The notes beneath the pieces are model-generated. The model was not told the origin of the DNA and did not search any database. It saw only the letters and a program-made list of their open reading frames with translations. Below, piece after piece: positions 2,960 through 16,949 of a DNA stretch of 34,770 bases. The position numbers were made by a program, and so were the translations under genes. The stretch lies in the NCBI GenBank assembly GCA_947446605.1, contig CANFHJ010000018.1, positions 1 to 34,770 on the forward strand. The letters are read 5' to 3'. The DNA comes from Bacteroidota bacterium. GTDB taxonomy: Bacteria; Bacteroidota; Bacteroidia; UKL13-3. Every line of letters begins with the position of its first letter. Position 1 is the first letter of the stretch.

Positions 2960-2975
2960 TTTGGTTCGAACCAAA
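2960..2975. repeat. 16-bp perfect palindrome containing GGTTCGAACC, downstream of feoB
   Basis: The sequence TTTGGTTCGAACCAAA is a perfect palindrome between the feoB stop and the beta-helix gene. Its core GGTTCGAACC recurs at 5390-5399 inside the candidate feoAB promoter and at 27429-27438 inside ricT. It has no loop and is not a terminator. A two-fold symmetric protein-binding site is possible. Confidence 0.5.
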
Positions 2976-2979
2976 AAAT

Positions 2980-5100
2980 TTAACCAAAAACCTGGTAGAT
3001 AAACAAGCTACTGCCGTATGCCAAAAATGTAAGGTACACAAATTGAATAATGGCCCATTTGCTGCCACCCGTTTCTTTTCTTACAATGGCAACTGTACTC
3101 ATGCATTGCAGCGCAAAGGCATAAAACAAAAGCAAAGAAAATACCGTGGCCAAACTATAACTGGGCTTTCCTGTTTGCGTATTGGTTTCACTTAGCATGG
3201 CTGCTCTTATGGAATGTAAATTATCATCTGCACCACTCACGCTGTAAATGGTACTCATGGTGCCCACAAAAACCTCTCTGGCAGCCATAGAGGTTAGCAG
3301 GGCAATGCCTATTTTCCAATCAAAGCCAAGCGGACGAATAGCAGGTTCTATAAATTTGCCAAATTGCCCAGCATAACTGGCTTCTAAGAAATCGGCATCG
3401 CGCTGTAAATTGAGTCCGCCAAGCAATGCCTCATTTTTCTCGGTCTCGTTTAATTGCGCCATGTGCTGCTCGTATTTTTGTGCAACGGCATTCATTTTGT
3501 CTCTTGGACCAGTAGAAGCCAATACCCATAAAATAACAGAAACGGCAATAATAATTTTTCCGGCACCTACCACAAAAGCACTTGCTTTTTCATAAAGTGT
3601 AATGAGCAAATTACCAGGCAGCGGTAATTTATAACCCGGCAATTCCATCAGAAAATAATTCTGCTGGGCAGATTTAATAAAATGCTTAAAAATCCAGGCA
3701 CTGAGCAATGCTGCCACAAAGCCAATTAAATACATGAGCATTAAAACCAAACCATGGATATTAAATGGACCCCATACGGCAGTATCTGGAATAAAAATAG
3801 AAATAAGCAACGCATAAACAGGCAAGCGAGCAGAACAACTCATTAAAGGAATTACCAATATGGTAATTAAGCGCTCGCGTTTGTTTTCTATGCTCCTACT
3901 GGCCATAATACTTGGCACCGCGCAAGCCATACCACTAATGAGCGGAACAATAGATTTTCCATTCATTCCAAAAGGACGCATAACCCTGTCCATAATAAAA
4001 CCCACACGTGCCATATAGCCAATGTCTTCTAAAATGGCAATAAAGAAAAAGAGCACAATAATTTGTGGCAGAAAAACAATTACCCCACTTAAACCCGCCA
4101 AAACACCTTGCACCAATAAATCGTTGAGAACCCCTTGTGGCAGCGCATTTTTAACATATTCACTTAAGAAGGCAAAGGCATTTTCAACCAGTTCCATGGG
4201 ATAGGTACTCCAACTAAAAACGGCCTGAAAAATTAAGAACATCAACACCAAAAATATACCAATGCCATAAAAGCGATGTGTTAATACCGCATCTACTCTT
4301 TTGGTAATAGATTTCTTTAAATTGTCTTGTGCTTGTATACGCGATTTTTTTACCGCTGCATCAATTAAGTGGTAGCGCGCAAACACTTCCTCCTCCTGAA
4401 ATTGCCTGGCATCAAATTGATACTGCGTAAAAATTTCTTTGATGCGCAAAGATTTTTCACTGATTAATTCTTTGGCATTAATGGCATATTGCAAGGCAGC
4501 ATAAGCATTGCGTTTGTCGCTTACCTTTCCCAATTCAGCCAACATTTCTTGGCTCAAATGGTCTATGCTGTAAAAGGCAGCATGTGCTTTGGGCAAGCGC
4601 TCTAAAATGGTTTGCTTAATTGGTTCGACCCCAATTCTTTTGCGCGCATTGATAGGGATTACGGGCACTTGCAATGCCTCGGAAAGTACTTCCAAATTAT
4701 AGGATATACCGCGGCGTTCGGCAACATCCAACATGTTTAAGGCTAAAATTGCCGGTACCCCTAAATCACAAACTTGGGTAAACAACAATAAATTTCTTTT
4801 TAAGTTAGAAGCATCTGCAATAAAGACAACTAAATCTGGGAAATTGGTTTCCGATTTATTGCGCAGAATTTCATAGGTCACTAATTCGTCGGCAGATTTT
4901 GGGTAAAGGCTATAAGTACCCGGCAAATCTATTATTTGCAATTTCACCGTATCGGAAAGCATGGTCTCCCCCATTTTTTTCTCAACGGTGGTGCCAGGAA
5001 AATTACTCACCTTTTGGTTCAATCCGGTAAGGGCATTAAACAAAGATGTTTTGCCACAATTGGGGTTTCCTACTAAGGCTACTGATATAATTCTTTCCAT
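2980..5100 (-). CDS. feoB: ferrous iron transport protein B (GTPase-permease)
   Basis: FeoB imports Fe2+ across the inner membrane. The 706-residue protein begins with a G-protein domain: G1 GNPNCGKTS (11-19), G2 around FPGTTVE (34-40), G3 DLPG (58-61), and a G4-like NMLDV. A helical domain follows (to about 260), then the polytopic permease with the two Gate motifs (LPQIIVLFFFIAILEDIGYM and the SCSARLPVY segment) and the later MAAREVFVGTMSTIY stretch. The length is normal for bacterial FeoB. The start codon overlaps the feoA stop as TAATG, so the two are translationally coupled. No FeoC is seen. Confidence 0.97.
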   Translation of the reverse strand: MERIISVALVGNPNCGKTSLFNALTGLNQKVSNFPGTTVEKKMGETMLSDTVKLQIIDLPGTYSLYPKSADELVTYEILRNKSETNFPDLVVFIADASNLKRNLLLFTQVCDLGVPAILALNMLDVAERRGISYNLEVLSEALQVPVIPINARKRIGVEPIKQTILERLPKAHAAFYSIDHLSQEMLAELGKVSDKRNAYAALQYAINAKELISEKSLRIKEIFTQYQFDARQFQEEEVFARYHLIDAAVKKSRIQAQDNLKKSITKRVDAVLTHRFYGIGIFLVLMFLIFQAVFSWSTYPMELVENAFAFLSEYVKNALPQGVLNDLLVQGVLAGLSGVIVFLPQIIVLFFFIAILEDIGYMARVGFIMDRVMRPFGMNGKSIVPLISGMACAVPSIMASRSIENKRERLITILVIPLMSCSARLPVYALLISIFIPDTAVWGPFNIHGLVLMLMYLIGFVAALLSAWIFKHFIKSAQQNYFLMELPGYKLPLPGNLLITLYEKASAFVVGAGKIIIAVSVILWVLASTGPRDKMNAVAQKYEQHMAQLNETEKNEALLGGLNLQRDADFLEASYAGQFGKFIEPAIRPLGFDWKIGIALLTSMAAREVFVGTMSTIYSVSGADDNLHSIRAAMLSETNTQTGKPSYSLATVFSLLLFYAFALQCMSTVAIVRKETGGSKWAIIQFVYLTFLAYGSSLFIYQVFG

Positions 5101-7163: not shown

Positions 7164-7418
7164 TTGGTGTTGGTAATTGTCTTCAAGCAATGGGGACCAG
7201 GACCTATTTGTTTTTTAACAATAATGTTTTTCAATTTGATATTAATTCCTATTATTATTACAATAGAATGGACAGGTAAGAATGAGGATTTTGCGATAGC
7301 TAATATTTTCGATGGTAAGCACTATTTGGTAAAATGGGCTTCATATTGCCTAATGATATATATACTTGGAATGTATATGTATACAAATATTTCCCAATTC
7401 ATTTAATTCCAGTTCTAA
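7164..7418 (+). pseudogene. C-terminal remnant of an MBOAT-type membrane O-acyltransferase
   Basis: About 80 residues in one frame hold two hydrophobic segments (FFNLILIPIIITIEW and KWASYCLMIYILGMYMY), then NISQFI, a TAA at 7404-7406, then FQF and TAA at 7416-7418. The order of a Glu-Trp-ending helix, a loop with a charged last helix, and a terminal FIYFQF is typical of the C-terminus of AlgI/MBOAT acyltransferases. The TAA therefore most likely replaces the Tyr codon of that motif. No upstream part of the gene remains, since comM ends 29 bases before. The last ~50 bases lie in the 253-bp repeat. The family call rests on pattern recognition only. Confidence 0.5.
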
Positions 7419-7619
7419 TGTTTAAAAAGTTTATTTACAGATTTTCAATATATTCGTTAAAATTCCCAAAAGTTGGCAAAAGATTAAATTCTGTAGAACT
7501 TGAAAATTTTCTATCTAAATTTAATGAATTTGATAGGATCTCAAAAGATGATGCAGAATCAATAGCACAAGTTTTACAGAAAAATTCCAGCAGCAAAAAT
7601 AATTACCACTGCTCATTTT
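7367..7619 (+). repeat. 253-bp direct repeat, left copy
   Basis: This stretch is matched at 15242-15494 in the same orientation without gaps and with two mismatches (T7473/C15348 and G7502/A15377). It runs from the last codons of the MBOAT remnant into the N-terminal third of sduA. The reading frames continue on both sides only here, so this copy is probably the original. Both copies carry the same TAA in the MBOAT end and the same five-A run that breaks the sduA frame. Confidence 0.95.
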
Positions 7620-9265: not shown

Positions 9266-9454
9266 TTATTCCTTATTAATACTGTAGTAATCTAAATTGC
9301 AAATTGGTTTATAGAAATTTGAAAGTAGTAAAAATTTGGTATTATAATATTTTGAATACTCCACGTTATTTCTTTCTTGATTTAATTTATTCATTTCCCA
9401 GTATTTTGAATGAACAGATTCTAATCTAACCCTGGATTTCTTGTCTTTTTGCAT
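9266..9454 (-). CDS. possible small protein overlapping the end of gwsG
   Basis: A 62-codon frame starts with ATG at 9454, overlapping the last 34 bases of gwsG in another frame. It encodes a basic, Tyr- and Asn-rich peptide (MQKDKKSRVRLESVHSKYW to NLDYYSINKE) with one Cys. It has no double-glycine leader, signal peptide or membrane segment. Its position directly behind gwsG makes it a candidate accessory of the peptide cluster, but overlapping AT-rich frames of this size arise by chance. Confidence 0.25.
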   Translation of the reverse strand: MQKDKKSRVRLESVHSKYWEMNKLNQERNNVEYSKYYNTKFLLLSNFYKPICNLDYYSINKE

Positions 9455-10428
9455 AACTCTATAGCAATAATTTTTTCAACGTAGTAATTACAAATGTAAG
9501 AATAAAATGAAAATTGTCCCATAGGATTTATCTCAAGTAGTACGAATTCATTTGAATTTGAATATAGTAAATCTATTGAACCAGAATCTAAATTCAATCT
9601 ATTCATCAATTTAGATAATTTCAATTTCAAATTTGCTGGTAAAGCAATTGGGACAAATCTTGGCGGCACCCTTGGATCAATATCTCTGGAGTCTGCAGAT
9701 TGGCTCCCAAAAGAAATGATGCCGGTACTGTAAAAATGGGACCTTAAATAGAACACTCGGATTTCAAATTTTGATTCAATGAATTCTTGAAAAAGAGAGG
9801 GTAAGAAAATCGTTTTTAGGTCGGATATTTCTGCTTCAGTTACCTCAACAGTTCCTTTTGTGTATAAATATTCACCCTCACTTATACTGCTCACATTTAA
9901 CGCCTTAGTGATAATTCTACCCACATTTGATTTAAATTTCCGAAGCTCATTTACCGAAAATATTATCTTTGTTCTGGGAATATTTAAACCTAATACTTTA
10001 GCAATTTCGAGTGTTTGATATTTGTTTATAAGGTAATCGTTCTGCCTGCCGATTCGATTTTCAATTGCTTCAATCCTATTTAGTAAAAATTCAGATACAA
10101 CTTTGAATTCTTTACTCAAATAATTTATGGAGTAATCATGATTAATATTAAGTTGTAATGTACTTTCTGAAGCAATTTGTAATTTACCATTTCGGCACCA
10201 ATATGATAGAATATCCTCCGGATATTTAAAACTAATTTTTTGAGGCAGGATTTTAAATTCTATATCATCAGATAAATCTGTTTGATTAATATTTAATACG
10301 ACTAATTTTTCAGTATTATTAATCTTAATCCACCCTTGCTTATAATAATCAAGCCAATCAATAACAATGACCACATTATTTTCATCAATCGATGAATCAC
10401 TATTTATCAATACCAATTTTTTTTTCAT
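9421..10428 (-). CDS. gwsG: grasp-with-spasm system ATP-grasp peptide ligase
   Basis: The protein has 335 residues from the ATG at 10428. A start at 10467 would add a poorly fitting basic stretch read inside the C39 gene. It opens KKKLVLINSDSSIDENNVV and VIDWLDYYKQGW, the pre-ATP-grasp domain of graspetide ligases, followed by NRIGRQNDYLINKYQTLEIA and LGLNIPRTKI. The ATP-grasp core shows the FQEFIESKFEIRVFYL strand, and ends with SIDLLYSNSNEFVLLEINPMGQF holding the Mg-binding Asp, Glu and Asn. Such enzymes make ester or amide links between Asp/Glu and Ser/Thr/Lys side chains of a precursor peptide. The order SPASM protein, peptidase, ATP-grasp with overlaps supports the GwsG call. Confidence 0.85.
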   Translation of the reverse strand: MKKKLVLINSDSSIDENNVVIVIDWLDYYKQGWIKINNTEKLVVLNINQTDLSDDIEFKILPQKISFKYPEDILSYWCRNGKLQIASESTLQLNINHDYSINYLSKEFKVVSEFLLNRIEAIENRIGRQNDYLINKYQTLEIAKVLGLNIPRTKIIFSVNELRKFKSNVGRIITKALNVSSISEGEYLYTKGTVEVTEAEISDLKTIFLPSLFQEFIESKFEIRVFYLRSHFYSTGIISFGSQSADSRDIDPRVPPRFVPIALPANLKLKLSKLMNRLNLDSGSIDLLYSNSNEFVLLEINPMGQFSFYSYICNYYVEKIIAIELCKKTRNPGLD

Positions 10429-10882
10429 AAATCTCAATGAAAATACCTTTACTAAAAGATTTTTCATTTTTAAGCACCCAAAAACCTGAAAACTCCCTTA
10501 ATGAATAAGCAACTTGCCCAATATTTGGATCATAAATATAAAATAATCCAGCATGAATTCTATGGATTACTACAAAGTGGTTTTCATTCCAAAATAAAAT
10601 ACCTGGCACATTTAATTGCCCAATTAGGTAAATAGGAATACAAAGTAATCTAGAATCAAAATCAAGTGATGACAATATTTCAACAATTTCTTTGATACTA
10701 ATTAAACTCCGGTAATTATTAATCTGTTCGCATAGTTCTTTGCTACTGGACTTATTATAATATTCAGATATCCTAATGACGCAAGAAATGCCACAATTCA
10801 TCTTTTCTTTATGAATAACTGTTTTTTTTGAAAAGGATAAACCACTAAATTTACCATCCAAAGATTCTACTATTATTGCCAT
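10400..10882 (-). CDS. stand-alone C39-type cysteine peptidase of the grasp-with-spasm cluster
   Basis: The 160-residue protein is essentially one peptidase C39 domain: NCGISCVIRISEYY with the presumed nucleophile Cys30, the NVPGILFWNENHFVVIHRI strand with His102, and FYIYDPNIG with Asp118. This domain normally forms the N-terminus of ABC exporters that cut peptide leaders after a double glycine. Here no membrane or ATPase part follows. The Gln that usually lies six residues before the Cys (oxyanion hole) is His24 in this alignment, so activity is uncertain. The start overlaps the gwsS stop by 10 bases, and the end overlaps gwsG by 29. It probably processes the precursor matured by GwsS/GwsG. 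Confidence 0.75.
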   Translation of the reverse strand: MAIIVESLDGKFSGLSFSKKTVIHKEKMNCGISCVIRISEYYNKSSSKELCEQINNYRSLISIKEIVEILSSLDFDSRLLCIPIYLIGQLNVPGILFWNENHFVVIHRIHAGLFYIYDPNIGQVAYSLREFSGFWVLKNEKSFSKGIFIEIYEKKIGIDK

Positions 10883-11892
10883 TTAGTGGAAATTGGATCG
10901 TAATTGCATTTTACAGGTTTTGAGCTAAATAACTCTTCATTTGGAAGAAATGCTCTACAATCAGTACAAATATATCTAAACTCACAAATTTTACAGGTTT
11001 GAATATCATCTTTTTTTGCGTACCAAATATTTTTAAAAGAATTGTCTTCTAAAACATGTTTCAATTTTTTAGTTTTGATATTACCAAAATCAAATGCCAT
11101 TGAAGGGCAATTCATTATTTTCCCAAATTTATTAATTGATATTTTTCGATTCAGACAGCTATTAAAATTTTGAGATTCTGTAAATAACTGCAGATTTGAA
11201 TGAAATGAAGAATGATTGATTTTTCCACAACAATTTTCATTAATTATAGGAATTGTAGTGAAAATTATTTGTTGAGTTAATGAGTGTGTCAAAATTCTAT
11301 TATTTGGACTATTTGAAAAAATAATTCTAGAAACCCTACGATTATTAGATAAAATATCGGATACGCTATCAATTTCAATTTGAGAATCATATTGAGCAAA
11401 AAATTCAATGTTACGAAATTTACTATTTTGCGTGAACCTTAGAATTTTAGTTATTTCCTCTGCAGATATCCTAGTATATGATCTTAACATTAAAAAATGG
11501 GCACCAAGTTCCTGTAGTTGTTCAAAAATATCTTCAAAATTATGGTTGCTTTCAATATCGAAATCAATTATTGCATTTGTAATTATTGATGGTGAATCCC
11601 AAATTAATTCTAACTCAGGAAATAGATCTTCATCATCACTATTAAAATACAATACAAGTTTTTTTTCTATTAAAAAAGAAAAATATTCATCTATAATAAC
11701 TCTATTCTCATCACCATAATATGAATATACATCTAATATTCGTTTACGATTAAATTTTTCTAACAGGCTATAAAGATCATTTGGAATAAAGAAATATTGA
11801 CTATTTTGTAAATCACAAATTATCGACCTTGTATATCCTTTAACTGGTATACAATTAGCAAATAACATAAACATTTCAGTTTTCAAATTCAT
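10873..11892 (-). CDS. gwsS: grasp-with-spasm system SPASM-domain peptide maturase
   Basis: The protein has 339 residues. The N-terminus has FANCIPVKGYTRSIICDLQ and YFFIPNDLYSLLEK, followed by WDSPSIITNAIIDFD, as in the GwsS family. The C-terminal SPASM domain holds the cysteines of an auxiliary iron-sulfur site: SCLNRKISI (Cys246), NCPSM (Cys262), TCKICEFRYICTDCRAF (Cys300, 303, 309, 312) and Cys329. The CxxxCxxC of radical SAM enzymes is absent, a family trait, so the protein probably acts as a peptide-binding partner of GwsG rather than a radical enzyme. It is the first gene of a tightly overlapping three-gene unit. Confidence 0.87.
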   Translation of the reverse strand: MNLKTEMFMLFANCIPVKGYTRSIICDLQNSQYFFIPNDLYSLLEKFNRKRILDVYSYYGDENRVIIDEYFSFLIEKKLVLYFNSDDEDLFPELELIWDSPSIITNAIIDFDIESNHNFEDIFEQLQELGAHFLMLRSYTRISAEEITKILRFTQNSKFRNIEFFAQYDSQIEIDSVSDILSNNRRVSRIIFSNSPNNRILTHSLTQQIIFTTIPIINENCCGKINHSSFHSNLQLFTESQNFNSCLNRKISINKFGKIMNCPSMAFDFGNIKTKKLKHVLEDNSFKNIWYAKKDDIQTCKICEFRYICTDCRAFLPNEELFSSKPVKCNYDPISTKWQ

Positions 11893-12327
11893 TCCAACAT
11901 GATTCTAAAGGCAATATTATATTCTAGCCACAATTCAATCAAAACTGCCAATTTTTAAATATAGAGTAAACTATTTCTAGCAAATTTCTTAAAAATAATT
12001 AAGGCAGCCTAAAAGCAGCATGATTAATATAAACTATAGCCACAAATTACTTAAACATAGATAAATTGAAATTTCAAATTTCATAAAATAAATTTCAAAC
12101 TTTCAATTCTGAAAAATAAGAAACTTGCAAAATCAATTTAAACTAGAAATTGAAATAGCGGTTTATATTAAGTTTCAAAAGCTTAAGGAAATATGCTGCA
12201 TAACTATTAAACCATACCACACCAGAGTGATTTATAGTGCCTGAATTTAGAAACAATTTCAAAGTGATTTTTGCATTTTACAAAAACCTAATGCATATTC
12301 CGGATAAAAACATATCGCAAGTTATAC
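11893..12327. other. 435-bp AT-rich intergenic region before gwsS
   Basis: Both strands were read for a precursor peptide. The longest minus-strand frames opening with ATG have 16 codons or fewer, and the longest on the plus strand has 19, with no GG leader. A palindrome TTGAAATTTCAA lies at 12066-12077 within a run of GAAATTT-like words. A promoter candidate is annotated at 11956-11984. Confidence 0.7.
11956..11984 (-). promoter_or_regulatory. candidate promoter of the gws operon
   Basis: TTTG (11984-11981) is followed after 17 bases by TATATTTA (11963-11956) on the minus strand, one base away from TAnnTTTG. It ends 63 bases upstream of the gwsS ATG. Found by eye in AT-rich DNA. Confidence 0.35.
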
Positions 12328-12819
12328 TTAAGAACAGCCACAATCGCTAATTAATGTATCGAGACTAGACTCAATAAAATAATCCCAAGAATTTATTGGC
12401 CAATCATTAGGTTTTAATGTTTTTGTAATATTTGGTGAAAATGGTACCAAAAGTGGCTTTAACATTGAATAACCTGGACCACCCCATGCATCACCCCCAC
12501 CATTATTATTTCCATTTCCTAAATCCTTTATAGACATAGCAAATATCAAAGGGGGGCATTGAGCATTAACATTATATCGATCAGTACAATTATCTGTCCT
12601 AGTGCCAACACTAGTATTGTGGACACAACAGTCCATATTATCTGTATATGGATACCAAAGACCGGTTGTTGGTGCGCAGCATGACTTCCCATGCGTAGTC
12701 AGAGTATGTGCTCTTCCTTGCCCACAAGGTCCAGTTGGTACACCTCCCAAGTTATCATCCAAATCATTACGAATATATTCTGAATAATTCTTGAATTTAT
12801 CCTCATTAATACTTTCCAT
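12328..12819 (-). CDS. Cys-rich signal-less protein with an early GG, possible modified-peptide precursor
   Basis: The protein has 163 residues and no signal peptide. Residues 1-26 (MESINEDKFKNYSEYI then RNDLDDNLGG) are acidic and leader-like and end in GG. What follows is unlike a normal globular protein: VPTGPCGQG, SCCAP, DCCVH, a Gly/Asn stretch (GNGNNNGGGDAWGGPG) and a final DCGCS, with nine Cys in all. I do not recognise a family. It is transcribed toward the gws unit and is the last gene of the small operon 13805-12328. A role as substrate of GwsG and the C39 peptidase is inference from position and composition. It is much longer than usual graspetide precursors. Confidence 0.6.
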   Translation of the reverse strand: MESINEDKFKNYSEYIRNDLDDNLGGVPTGPCGQGRAHTLTTHGKSCCAPTTGLWYPYTDNMDCCVHNTSVGTRTDNCTDRYNVNAQCPPLIFAMSIKDLGNGNNNGGGDAWGGPGYSMLKPLLVPFSPNITKTLKPNDWPINSWDYFIESSLDTLISDCGCS

Positions 12820-12832
12820 ATCAATCGTTCAA

Positions 12833-13201
12833 TTAACTATATGAATCAATTATAAGTCCAAAAACTGCCACAACAAAACTTTCACTTACGGCTGTAGAAA
12901 CCCCAATTGGTATTCCATTTGGTAGAGTAAGGTTGTTAAATGATAGAATTGAAGAATAAGCAGAATATTGGTCGGTTGCTATCACTTCCGGTATTGGCAC
13001 TTCTCTAAAAAGTCTCCAGTTCACAGAATCCGTTTTTATATAGAATCTTATCATTCCAGATGATACATTTCCTGTTGCCTGCAAAACAACTTGTTGAATT
13101 ACAGTGCCAAATGTACTACCCCCTGAAATTAACTCTACAATACTTCCGGATGTGTCAATTTCAACCGAATTTGCTGCTGCTTGATAAATTGGATTTGCCA
13201 T
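12833..13201 (-). CDS. small beta-rich protein, possibly virion-like or structural
   Basis: The 122-residue protein has no signal peptide or membrane segment. It reads as alternating strands: MANPIYQAAANSVEIDTSGS, IVELISGGSTFGTVIQQVVLQ, SSGMIRFYIKTDSVNWRLF, NNLTLPNGIPIGVSTAVSES and a hydrophobic end, without Cys or catalytic motifs. The style resembles small phage-derived or structural beta-sandwich proteins, but no family can be named. The IVELISGG segment looks like a double-glycine site, but it lies within a predicted strand. It sits 13 bases before the Cys-rich gene and 26 bases after the lipoprotein gene, so it shares their operon. Confidence 0.6.
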   Translation of the reverse strand: MANPIYQAAANSVEIDTSGSIVELISGGSTFGTVIQQVVLQATGNVSSGMIRFYIKTDSVNWRLFREVPIPEVIATDQYSAYSSILSFNNLTLPNGIPIGVSTAVSESFVVAVFGLIIDSYS

Positions 13202-13227
13202 TTTAATTAATTTGATTTTTATGTATT

Positions 13228-13662
13228 TTAGTGTTTCGGAAATTCTTTCTGCAATTTTTGAAATAAAGATTTTTGGTTTTCATTCATTTTGGGCAACATA
13301 GTTTCAATACTATCAACAAAAGAATTATACCTTTTTAAAATACACTCATAAAACACACTACCACCCCTACCAAGAGGTAAAGCGATTGATATTCGCGAAG
13401 TAGTATCTGGTATATATACCGTCTTAACTCCATTAGGTACTGGGACATCTATAAATAGTGAATCTGTGATTGAAAATTGCTTACCTTGACTTAGAAAAAT
13501 CGAATCCTCTTTTCTAATAGATTCAACATAAGCCTGAAACCTATTTAGCAAAAGTTCAACTTCGTTGGAATTTGTCTTAGCACATCCCATATAGAAAGCT
13601 AAGAAAATTAAAGCAATTTTATTAATCTTGTTAATCTTGATTATGTTAGTGAATCTTATCAT
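13228..13662 (-). CDS. small lipoprotein of unknown function
   Basis: The protein has 144 residues. A basic N-terminus (MIRFTNIIKINKINK) leads into the hydrophobic IALIFLAFYMGC, where the Cys fits a lipobox, so it should be lipidated. The mature part has two helical ends (NEVELLLNRFQAYVES, and NENQKSLFQKLQKEF) around a strand region. The ATG overlaps the stop of a 48-codon frame as ATGA, which suggests translational coupling. The family is unknown. Confidence 0.65.
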   Translation of the reverse strand: MIRFTNIIKINKINKIALIFLAFYMGCAKTNSNEVELLLNRFQAYVESIRKEDSIFLSQGKQFSITDSLFIDVPVPNGVKTVYIPDTTSRISIALPLGRGGSVFYECILKRYNSFVDSIETMLPKMNENQKSLFQKLQKEFPKH

Positions 13663-13805
13663 TTAGCTATTATTTCAGAATTATTAAACACAATATTTTC
13701 ATATGGTTTATTTTTCAAAACTAAATCATTTTTAATTTCTTGGTAAATCAAATGTATCCAAAATATCATTACTATGAAATACTTGCTTAAACACATAAAG
13801 TCCAT
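13659..13805 (-). CDS. 48-residue membrane peptide coupled to the lipoprotein gene
   Basis: ATG at 13805 opens a frame of 48 codons. It begins MDFMCLSKYFIVMIFWIHLI, a single likely membrane helix, and continues with a short charged tail ending NNSEIIAK. Its TGA shares bases with the ATG of the lipoprotein gene (ATGA), the spacing seen in coupled genes. No family is recognised and chance cannot be excluded at this size. Confidence 0.4.
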   Translation of the reverse strand: MDFMCLSKYFIVMIFWIHLIYQEIKNDLVLKNKPYENIVFNNSEIIAK

Positions 13806-13883
13806 AAACTCTGTTTTTCAAAAAGATACATAATATTAATAATATAAAATTAGTAGCATAATCATATTAATATATTATGTAAG

Positions 13884-13905
13884 TTCAAGTAATAAGTGCA
13901 ATTTT
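13884..13905 (+). repeat. IS30-family terminal inverted repeat, left end
   Basis: Twenty-two bases starting TTCAAGTAATAAGTG. They match the reverse complement of 14951-14972 except at positions 6 and 7. Confidence 0.75.
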
Positions 13906-14879
13906 CTTCTGTAGCAATTGATTAGGTGGTAAATAATTAAACTTTCTAACAGGTCTATTGTTGATTTTCATTTCAACTTCTCTGACTTGTTTACTAGTAA
14001 CAAATGTAAGATTTGTTTTCTTAGGAAAAACCTTCTTATAACTCCAATTCTATTTTCAACAGAACCTTTATCCTGGCTAGTATATGGTCTTGTAAATTAG
14101 GTTTTAACTCCTATAGCTTCTGCAAGCTTTGTATGTGAACTAAAGGCTTTGTCGTTACCAAAGGTCATTGTTCTAGGTTTAAATATGTTCTTATTTGCTG
14201 CTTTTACAATGGCTTTAAAAACAATACATGATGAGCGCTTGGGTATTTTTCATAATCTAGTATGTAAAGTGGCTCTATCAATCATTACAAGTAGGGCTCC
14301 CTTGCGATCTTTACCCATCATAAAGTCCAATTCATAATCTCCAAGACGCGACCGTTTATTTACTATTAATGGCCTTTGGGTAATAGGAACTCTATTCGGA
14401 ATTAATCCACGAGTGTCTTTTCTATTACCGCGCTTTCGTCGGCGTCTACCATGGCGTAAAAATTGGTAAAGATTTCTATATGGCTTTACATCTTTAGTAT
14501 TGGTGTGTTTGCATTGCCAAATCCACTGGTAAATCCTTTCATGACTGACCATTTCAACTTTACTACATTGGCTAATTAACTCTGGACTCCAGCGATCTAT
14601 TACTAAATGCTTTTGTATGACTTGCTTCATACTTTCAGTAAATACAACATGCTTGGCCTTTTCAGTATGCCTTAAGGTGGTTTTTCTTTGCGCATTTGAG
14701 GCTACATACTCTCCAGAAGTAAGGCCTCGCTTAGCAATATTGCGTTTGAGTTCTCAACTAATGGTGGATGGATGAACCTCCAATTGTTGCGCAATCATTT
14801 TTTGGTTCATTCCAGCTTTTAATAAAGACTCAATTTGGTATCTTTGATCAAAACTGAGTTGATTGTAATTTTTTGACAT
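13885..14879 (-). pseudogene. IS30-family transposase, inactivated
   Basis: From the ATG at 14879 the frame reads MSKNYNQLSFDQRYQIESLL and LEVHPSTIS (the IS30 helix-turn-helix), then TGA at 14754-14756 in place of the Arg of the usual S-R-E-L-K-R-N. It continues through VSHERIYQWIW, RSRLGDYELDFMMGKDRKGALL (first acidic motif) and MIDRATLHTRL to a TGA at 14250-14252. Then come AIVKAANKNIF, FGNDKAFSSH (second Asp), TAA at 14097-14099 and YTSQDKGSVENRIG (third acidic residue). A frameshift near 14022-14032 leads to KINNRPVRKFNYLPPNQLL. All IS30 DDE landmarks can be seen, but the gene cannot make a full transposase. Confidence 0.88.
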
Positions 14880-14950
14880 AGACAATCCAAAGATCGCACT
14901 ACTGAGTCAAAAGGTAAAAAGCCCTCAAAAGCTTTTTGCCTTTTGTTCAA

Positions 14951-15241: not shown

Positions 15242-15494
15242 TGGAATGTATATGTATACAAATATTTCCCAATTCATTTAATTCCAGTTCTAATGTTTAA
15301 AAAGTTTATTTACAGATTTTCAATATATTCGTTAAAATTCCCAAAAGCTGGCAAAAGATTAAATTCTGTAGAACTTAAAAATTTTCTATCTAAATTTAAT
15401 GAATTTGATAGGATCTCAAAAGATGATGCAGAATCAATAGCACAAGTTTTACAGAAAAATTCCAGCAGCAAAAATAATTACCACTGCTCATTTT
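15242..15494 (+). repeat. 253-bp direct repeat, right copy
   Basis: Same orientation as 7367-7619, ungapped, two mismatches in 253 bases. The copied part ends abruptly on both sides within coding remnants: no MBOAT sequence precedes it and no sduA sequence follows it, so this looks like a transferred copy. A 74-codon frame at 15293-15517 inside it is the sduA fragment plus chance codons and should not be taken as a gene. Confidence 0.95.
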
Positions 15495-15543: not shown

Positions 15544-16200
15544 TTAAATTGGAGAATAAAGCCCATTTGCAATGGCATAATTAAGAATCTCAAGACTTTT
15601 ATGAACACCAATTTTCTTCATTATATTATAACGATGAGTTGAAATTGTAGTTTCATCTCTATGCAAGATGTTCCCGATTTCTTTATTAGATTTTCCCTCA
15701 CATATCAATATCACTATTTCAATCTCCCGTTTACTTAAAAATTTTTTCGGATTTTTAAGTCGATTTTTATGGAACTCCTGATGTTGGAAAATTGTATCCA
15801 TCGCCTCTAAGTTAAAATGCTTTTGTTCCTTCATTAAAACCCTTTCAATGGCAAATTTCACTTCTTCATTCTCTGTATCTTTAAATAGATATCCGTCAGC
15901 CTCATTTTGATATGCACTTACAATATATTCTTTATTATGATGTCCACTTAAAATCAAAATTTTTATACCCTTATATTTCAACTTTAAATTTCTGCACATC
16001 TTTAGGCCATTTCCATCTTTAAGTTCAATGTCTAGTAGGATCAAATCATATTTAACCTTTTCAAGCATTTCTAAAATTTCTTTTTCACCCGCAAAACATT
16101 GTACTTGCACCACAAATGATAGTTTTTCTATAAAGTATTTGTAACCATCCCTAACCGCAAAATGGTCATCAACTATGGCTATGGAGAATACTCTTGTCAT
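15544..16200 (-). CDS. NarL/LuxR-type response regulator
   Basis: The 218-residue protein has a receiver domain (IAIVDDHFAVRDGYKYF with acidic Asp11/12, LLDIEL with phospho-acceptor Asp57, LILSGH with Ser85, YLFKD with Lys107). A C-terminal LuxR HTH follows (LSKREIEIVILICEGKSNKE, then TTISTHRYNIMKKIGV). It should be phosphorylated by the neighbouring kinase, whose stop overlaps its start by 4 bases. Its targets are not visible. The peptide and lipoprotein operons nearby are candidates by position only. Confidence 0.93.
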   Translation of the reverse strand: MTRVFSIAIVDDHFAVRDGYKYFIEKLSFVVQVQCFAGEKEILEMLEKVKYDLILLDIELKDGNGLKMCRNLKLKYKGIKILILSGHHNKEYIVSAYQNEADGYLFKDTENEEVKFAIERVLMKEQKHFNLEAMDTIFQHQEFHKNRLKNPKKFLSKREIEIVILICEGKSNKEIGNILHRDETTISTHRYNIMKKIGVHKSLEILNYAIANGLYSPI

Positions 16201-16949
16201 TGCAGTTTATTTAAATGAAAAGTAAAAAAAAAGTTGGATCCTTCTAAATTGGAATATTTCAAATTTCCTCCTAAAAAATTTGTCCTGTTTTTGATGTTGC
16301 TTAAACCAGAACCCACAATTTCTTTGGTATCATATTCAAATCCAACTCCATTATCATGAAACTTCATTTCTAAGGTGTTACTTTGAGTAGTAAAAATTGA
16401 TAGGCTAACCTTTTTAGCATTTGAATGCTTCAAAGCATTATTAAAAAGTTCCTGAATTATTCTATAAATCTGTATTTCGTAATGTTTATTAATACCTTCA
16501 GGAAAATTATTTATTAATTCAACTTCGAAATGCTGATTGAAATCACCACATAACTGATCAATTGCGCCTTTAATTCCGGATAATGCAATTGAGCTAGGAG
16601 TTAATGCATGTGTAGCATTGCGGGCTTCTATGCTTGCATTTGTTATATAACCATAAACCACATTGGCAATATTCTGCATTTCCAAAATGGATAAATTGCC
16701 GGAAACAATGTTACCTATTTGTATTTTAGCACCACTTAATAATCCTCCAATCCCATCATGAATATCACGGCCAATTCTATTTCGTTCATCTTCCTGCGCA
16801 TCCAAAATTAATTTAAAAAGGAATTCCTTTTGTGATTGAACCTTCTTCATATACCTGTATATGATGATAATCATAAAGGTAATTAAAAAGACAAAAGAAG
16901 CCCCACCAAACATCATTGCTATTAGGATATCTTCTCTTTCTTTAGACAT
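16197..16949 (-). CDS. membrane histidine kinase, HisKA_3 type
   Basis: The protein has 250 residues with one N-terminal membrane helix (about 9-31). It is followed by EDERNRIGRDIHDGIGGLL, the dimerisation box with phospho-acceptor His64. The ATPase domain follows with ELFNNALKHSNAKKV (N box), FHDNGVGFEY (G1) and GSGLSNIKNRTNFLGG (G2). No extracellular sensor domain is present, so sensing may come from the membrane protein encoded just upstream, whose gene overlaps this one by 28 bases. Partner: the response regulator at 15544-16200. Confidence 0.92.
   Translation of the reverse strand: MSKEREDILIAMMFGGASFVFLITFMIIIIYRYMKKVQSQKEFLFKLILDAQEDERNRIGRDIHDGIGGLLSGAKIQIGNIVSGNLSILEMQNIANVVYGYITNASIEARNATHALTPSSIALSGIKGAIDQLCGDFNQHFEVELINNFPEGINKHYEIQIYRIIQELFNNALKHSNAKKVSLSIFTTQSNTLEMKFHDNGVGFEYDTKEIVGSGLSNIKNRTNFLGGNLKYSNLEGSNFFFTFHLNKLQ

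Follow-up and report, generated by a model that had tools for sequence, protein, structure and literature searches.

Organisation of the gws cluster

The 34,770-nt stretch analysed here, referred to as the window, comprises positions 1 to 34,770 (forward strand) of contig CANFHJ010000018.1 from a Bacteroidota bacterium (assembly GCA_947446605.1), whose genome amounts to 2.48 Mb in 203 contigs and is 84.5% complete. It carries a grasp-with-spasm (gws) cluster in which gwsS, the gene of a single-domain C39 double-glycine (GG) peptidase and gwsG follow one another on the reverse strand, with the gene of a Cys-rich 163-residue protein, the probable precursor, upstream of them (Table 1). GwsS passes the TIGR04193 model with 319 bits against a cut-off of 175, while TIGR04192 is the top family for GwsG (E 1e-61), at 208.6 bits and so below the cut-off of 230. 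All reading frames of the cluster are open. The overlaps of 10 and 29 bases and the lack of an exporter described in an earlier sequence-only reading are both borne out: gwsS and the C39 gene share 10 nt, the C39 gene and gwsG share 68 nt from the first ATG of gwsG (10467) or 29 nt from the second (10428), the latter figure requiring the second start, and no exporter gene is recognised in the island that holds the cluster. That reading overlooked the 62-residue open reading frame (ORF) at the end of gwsG, as well as the gene for the small protein p122, which ends 13 nt before the Cys-rich gene, and the putative lipoprotein gene ahead of it. The 62-residue product has a C-terminal FYKPI motif and no literal LPL, and is 38% identical to a small ORF (L029:631-807) that lies between gwsG and gwsS in a locus of the same genus; in the window it is found after gwsG and not before gwsS. 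Judged on its gene content the cluster is real and permuted, with a stand-alone C39 peptidase, and this partner ORF makes it complete. Promoter and terminator scans were near background (35 against 32.7 expected and 2 against 1.3 expected), and no full Bacteroidota-type promoter was found on the coding strand in 11800-14000.

Table 1. Positions of the gws genes and surrounding features in the window.
Feature	Position	Strand	Basis or remark
Direct repeat, left copy, 253 nt	7367..7619	.	Outside the cluster; 99% identical to right copy
TPR/DUF6624-like secreted protein, 325 aa	8279..9256	+	Opposite strand to the gws genes
Partner, LPL/FYKPI type, 62 aa	9266..9454	-	34-nt overlap with gwsG end; 38% identity to L029 ORF
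gwsG, ATP-grasp peptide maturase	9421..10467	-	Start may be 10428; TIGR04192, 208.6 bits
C39 double-glycine peptidase, single-domain, 160 aa	10400..10882	-	PF03412; triad Cys30/His102/Asp118
gwsS, SPASM-domain peptide maturase	10873..11892	-	TIGR04193, 319 bits
Cys-rich protein, probable precursor, 163 aa	12328..12819	-	Leader 1-26, core 27-163
Leader MESINEDKFKNYSEYIRNDLDDNLGG	12742..12819	-	Alignment with 11 chosen gws leaders; -4/-7/-12 positions
p122, small all-beta protein, 122 aa	12833..13201	-	Family alignment; fold match to phage proteins
Putative lipoprotein, 144 aa	13228..13662	-	ORF; lipobox by eye; 26 nt upstream of p122
Broken IS30-like transposase pieces	~13890-14885	-	Inside the island near its right end; named by eye
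Direct repeat, right copy, 253 nt	15242..15494	.	99% identical to left copy
p122 family members	window 12833-13201; L025, L043, L095, L114, L126, L164, L166-L169, L172, L173

For comparison, an alignment of GwsS was scanned against a collection of 84,980 genomes, which gave 455 relatives, the best 80 of which were retained as 79 distinct loci. With 15 loci from relatives, three fetched for p122, 20 stretches from a sample of the class and the window itself the set came to 118 loci, 112 of them unique; the weak matches G130 and G111 and the gwsS stretches of the class sample beyond the 20 fetched were omitted. A gwsS match is present in 6 of 64 genomes of the family. Bacteroidetes bacterium UKL13-3 is, on this comparison, a member of the same family as the window genome, because the gws loci of genome G038 and of CP012155.1 are identical. 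Gene order was judged in the 108 loci with gwsS and gwsG on one strand within 6 kb, a further four of the 112 being unjudgeable, and gwsS lies ahead of gwsG in just two, the window and L062. ORFs with an FYKPI-like motif adjoin the gws genes in 49 of the 108 loci according to a simple pattern, by which at least one (L110) appears by eye to be spurious, and many of them also bear an LPL- or LP-like motif. By their size and place, matched by eye, they would correspond to the LPL family in PMC8939145. That paper names GwsS a radical SAM enzyme; as the CX3CX2C motif is found within the first 200 residues of none of the 108 full-length GwsS proteins, the motif lends this label no support. The C..CE[FY]R motif of the SPASM domain is present in 107 of the 108, and its cysteines are retained in the window protein. 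By these motif counts GwsS is a SPASM protein that lacks the cluster motif of radical SAM enzymes.

The candidate precursor and its leader

As the sequence-only reading described, the product of 12328-12819 has 163 residues with nine Cys, no signal peptide that is visible by eye, and a GG at residues 25-26 that ends a leader of 26 residues. The statement that no ATG frame of more than 19 codons lies in the gap before gwsS also holds, as the longest in 11793-12427, the end genes aside, have 16 codons (coding strand) and 19 codons (opposite strand); a TTG frame of 39 codons exists there. Three lines, each weak alone, speak for the proposed precursor of unusual length: the likeness of the leader, a relative in the locus L113 and the place of the gene behind p122. 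The leader conforms to the consensus of 11 hand-chosen gws leaders, approximately KLESL..KFK......GG. With a profile of 66 leaders from other loci, selected by a loose pattern requiring a hydrophobic residue, Phe and GG and including a few that are likely to be spurious, this start scores 8.1 bits, the highest value among the 317 ATG starts of the window. In an opposite-strand control 3 of 4329 starts in the 79 loci score at least as high, two of which resemble leaders of ribosomally synthesised and post-translationally modified peptides (RiPPs), with GG and KGSG. A profile of 38 leaders built without the window gives this start as the better of two matches in its own genome, and in G017, the sister genome, it picks out a clear precursor (E 5.8e-4). 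G017 has a second gws cluster, which contains an 83-residue gws precursor, MKKLERMDGKLFEDLRKCEIPFLDNLLGG... (L163 3194-3445, G017:C171), together with gwsG and a further secreted-type protein. Among the ORFs of the 112 unique loci the only relative of the 163-residue protein is the 59-residue gws precursor of L113 (E 0.0051 among the 79 loci, 0.0075 among the 112), where the resemblance, by eye, lies in DKF.N and GG of the leader and in CG.G, TL and CC.P where the core begins.

A number of observations weigh against this assignment. The gene is separated from gwsS by 435 nt, its 163 residues exceed all 66 ORFs of the comparison leaders (40-108 residues, median 66), and the presumed core, which is Cys- and Thr-rich without evident repeats, is long at 137 residues. 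The 8.1 bits compare with a seed median of 23.9, the E value of the leader in its own genome with the 38-leader profile is 0.84, and a first, uncurated profile placed the start fourth of 937, after three nested starts in a gene of 889 residues. No homologue was seen in 147 relatives and no convincing one in 395 genomes of the class. Matches in 26 other class genomes (E 7.8e-4 to 0.1), whose neighbourhoods were not read, were judged to be due to chance, since all are short and some either run across stops or sit in very long frames. Homologues were also lacking in plasmids and viral contigs, the phage comparison gave one match (E 0.2), and the protein belongs to no NCBIfam, Pfam or PHROGs family; the 84,980-genome collection was queried with GwsS only, never with this protein.

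The length of the protein, its low leader score and the gap before gwsS, together with the incompleteness of the genome, would fit a different explanation, in which a short gwsA-like gene in the unassembled part encodes the true precursor and 12328-12819 belongs to a separate operon with p122 and the lipoprotein gene. This would seem improbable, given that a whole-genome search with the leader profile yields no better candidate in the assembled part, that most of the 79 loci have candidate GG precursors ahead of their gws genes (64 unfiltered, some of them spurious) and that p122 is itself linked to RiPP loci. The Cys-rich 163-residue protein is, with fair confidence from these comparisons, the most likely gws precursor.

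The stand-alone C39 peptidase

The C39 domain scores 64 bits with PF03412, where the cut-off is 22, and C30, H102 and D118 are invariant in alignments of 9 and of 16 C39 sequences. The predicted model, with a predicted local distance difference test (pLDDT) score of 81, has the full C39 fold and matches 6mpz best in the PDB (E 4.6e-7). A whole-genome search revealed no second C39 in the assembled part of the window genome, while the sister genome G017 has a second one, within a 771-residue frame. Across the 112 loci a C39 domain lies in an ORF of more than 450 residues in 54, all of these being counted by size as putative fusions to an ATP-binding cassette (ABC) transporter; it is absent from the stretch in 50, cut by the contig end in 2 and in a shorter ORF in 6. 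A transporter-sized C39 ORF is thus common, not universal, among gws loci, and the window has a single domain instead. The shorter ORFs that read as single domains are those of the window, of L029, from the same genus, with 129 residues behind gwsS, and of L073, from a bog Bacteroidetes metagenome-assembled genome, with 152 residues directly behind gwsS and 540 nt before the contig end. L094 was rejected as a stand-alone C39, since a 465-residue frame with a transporter-like end follows directly, as were L035, a fragmentary locus, and L060, which ends near the contig end. A single origin of the stand-alone form was also rejected: in a tree of C39 domains the window and L029 cluster (89/91), while L073 and L035 are separate. 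The window, L029 and L073 domains, unlike that of L035, are on long branches, the placement of which is unsure. The leader in L073, MESIKSALFEKFKFDELAFPEYIRGG, has 26 residues from that Met and 28 from the preceding one.

According to PMC10885120, LahT150 is unable to remove a leader that lacks hydrophobic residues at -4, -7 and -12. Such residues are found at these positions in 58, 41 and 47 of the 66 gws leaders, respectively; in the leader of the window the positions are taken by Asn, Leu and Tyr. For the cut after LDDNLGG suggested by the sequence-only reading, Leu at -7 and Tyr at -12 fit well; the Asn at -4 is atypical, is a further point against the assignment and makes the exact site less sure. 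It is plausible from the leader sequence that the C39 peptidase cuts at or near LGG, in a way that is not canonical. The oxyanion Gln six residues before the catalytic Cys aligns with a His in the window C39, which must be added to the same side of the balance, and the L029 ORF as called begins downstream of this position. The loss of this Gln, the Asn at -4 and the appearance of the C39-like domain 3zua in the Foldseek list would also be consistent with a C39 domain that does not cut but serves to recognise and bind the GG leader, in the manner of the C39-like domains found in type I secretion ATPases. With the catalytic Cys, His and Asp kept in the window, L029 and L073, and GG proteases (6mpz and PCAT1) as the best structural matches, binding without cutting is possible but rather unlikely; it is compatible with the pathway proposed below.

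The p122 family

No Pfam, NCBIfam or PHROGs family matches p122; the lipoprotein encoded ahead of it has no Pfam or NCBIfam family and no homologue among the ORFs of the 79 gws loci. In a survey of 395 class genomes, 147 relatives and the 79 gws loci, p122 was present in 11 of the class genomes and in 3 of the relatives; where it stands in RiPP loci, tandem copies are frequent. Five of the 11 are among the 28 class genomes with gwsS over the cut-off (hypergeometric P 4e-4, or 3e-3 minus the own genome), the two counts apparently being of the same 395 genomes and the p122 model having been built from copies beside gws genes. In six of the seven other gws loci with p122 (L025, L095, L114, L164, L167 and L173) it stands directly before an ORF of 70-105 residues with the gws genes after, apart from one extra gene between in L025 and L167 and a 450-nt gap in L114; the exception, L043, has a p122 fragment only. 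Two findings in these loci belong with the points against the window assignment. By eye, a GG is lacking from the first 35 residues in five of the six small ORFs that follow p122, and a C39 domain is found in none of the seven loci as against 61 of 104 without p122 (Fisher P 0.003), a contrast between non-independent loci in stretches of different lengths, three of the seven having been fetched for p122.

Beyond the gws loci, p122 occurs with LanC-like proteins in L169 and L172, along with a lantibiotic dehydratase in the former and an S41 peptidase in the latter; L168 appears similar to these two. In L126 (genome G039), which has no gwsS or C39 match, p122 is followed by a gene of 173 residues and then by a 91-residue peptide (2963-3238) with 13 Cys and GG at residues 34-35. 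Weak relatives in G209, G325 and G378 are in neighbourhoods that by eye are phage-like, the G209 relative being next to a PhageMin_Tail protein. The model of p122 (pLDDT 85) has eight strands, and its best PDB match is the cement protein of phage KHP40 (7dou, E 1.4e-4, template modelling (TM) score 0.63, identity 11%). Further fold matches are to spore appendage proteins and to predicted phage proteins, the best with a TM score of 0.82 and 26% identity. As small beta sandwiches match many things, the link to phage is only a lead.

As a lead from gene neighbourhoods, p122 would be a family that accompanies precursor-like ORFs in loci of both gws and lanthipeptide type, where it may act as a carrier or scaffold, or in immunity or regulation. 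This association is the newest element of the analysis; no p122-like companion is described in the titles and abstract openings among the literature matches listed, which is no proof that p122 is undescribed. A bolder proposal can be made tentatively, and is perhaps more doubtful than not: that a beta protein of phage-structural type was recruited in Bacteroidota as a companion of RiPP precursors of both gws and class I lanthipeptide type, replacing export by a C39 transporter. On this proposal p122 would be combined in the window with a cytoplasmic C39 and a Cys-rich graspetide core as large as a protein, and would handle or display a modified protein with several rings where one might look for a small exported peptide.

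The island and its flanks

The two direct repeats flank the gws island at a left-to-right distance of 7875 nt. No further full copy was found in 26 genomes, the own genome included, the 25 others giving two short weak matches; as none of these 25 has a full copy, no empty insertion site could be shown. The repeats and the insertion sequence (IS) pieces suggest movement of the island. Just outside the right repeat, at 15544-16949 on the reverse strand, are a LuxR-type response regulator and a histidine kinase, with unnamed proteins of 105 and 167 residues further upstream of these two-component genes. At the other end of the cluster, the TPR/DUF6624-like protein has matches in 10 of the 79 gws loci (E <=0.01, best 3e-13) and a weak match to DUF6624 itself (E 0.047); it is perhaps the published cluster 23, as a candidate assignment only.

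The flanking repeats, the broken IS30-like pieces, the permuted order seen in just two loci, the very long branches of the window and L029 C39 domains and the lost oxyanion Gln could together be taken as signs of a decaying cluster, a recombined island bordered by IS elements with a diverged C39, no exporter and a precursor that is no longer matured. Against decay stand the open frames of every gene in the cluster, the retained Cys, His and Asp of the C39 and cysteines of the SPASM domain, the full C39 fold of the model, the preserved partner ORF and the stand-alone C39 that likewise follows gwsS in another genome of this genus (L029), and it is hard to regard such a cluster as likely to be in decay.

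Proposed pathway

ATP-grasp enzymes of the graspetide type join Ser/Thr to Asp/Glu side chains. With a layout of p122, precursor, gwsS, C39, gwsG and LPL-type partner, GwsG would be guided by the 26-residue leader, and probably aided by the partner, to make such links between Ser/Thr and Asp/Glu in the 137-residue core, and GwsS would carry out or assist a further one. Leader removal at or near LGG would then fall to the stand-alone C39, acting in the cytoplasm and without coupling to export driven by ATP. The sequences show which genes are present, how they overlap, the likeness of the leader and the recurring place behind p122; we infer that these enzymes modify the 163-residue protein, by what chemistry, where it is cut and what becomes of the product. 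If true, a Cys-rich core of 137 residues would extend the size range of ATP-grasp substrates, and the soluble C39 from such a cluster could serve as a tool for leader removal. In p122 there would be a companion of RiPP precursors that is common to two RiPP classes and possibly of phage origin, and it could help to find precursors that have no GG motif.

Comparison with known systems

A literature search on the term grasp-with-spasm gave no match. In the available parts of PMC8939145 and related papers gws-type loci are described from sequence only, so that a cluster as compact as this, in which a single substrate can be identified and a transporter is missing, makes a convenient test bed. With the known gws loci (TIGR04192/TIGR04193; in PMC8939145, branch 5 of its ATP-grasp tree) the window has in common a GwsG-type ATP-grasp enzyme, GwsS, an LPL/FYKPI partner, a GG leader, a TPR/DUF6624-like neighbour and a Bacteroidota host. 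Whereas their usual order is precursor, gwsG, partner and gwsS, here it is gwsS, C39, gwsG and partner, and the window differs further in a C39 that stands alone and not in a transporter-sized ORF, a 163-residue, nine-Cys candidate precursor and the companion p122.

Among the large graspetides, PMC13097080 places corallotide in group 15, with clusters confined to Corallococcus, and notes long precursors for groups 34, 35 and 41. The window would share with these an unusually large ATP-grasp precursor and partner proteins in the cluster, but its core is Cys-rich without evident repeats and a SPASM protein is present. The C39 domains of peptidase-containing ABC transporters (6mpz, PCAT1, ComA) and that of the window have the same fold, the same Cys, His and Asp and a GG-type leader nearby. 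In contrast to these the window C39 has no transporter part and no other C39 beside it in the assembled genome, with His in place of the oxyanion Gln; its identity to the C39 domains of gws loci is 21-28%. Similarly, p122 has a predicted all-beta fold like that of the KHP40 cement protein (7dou) and of predicted phage proteins, but sits in RiPP loci.

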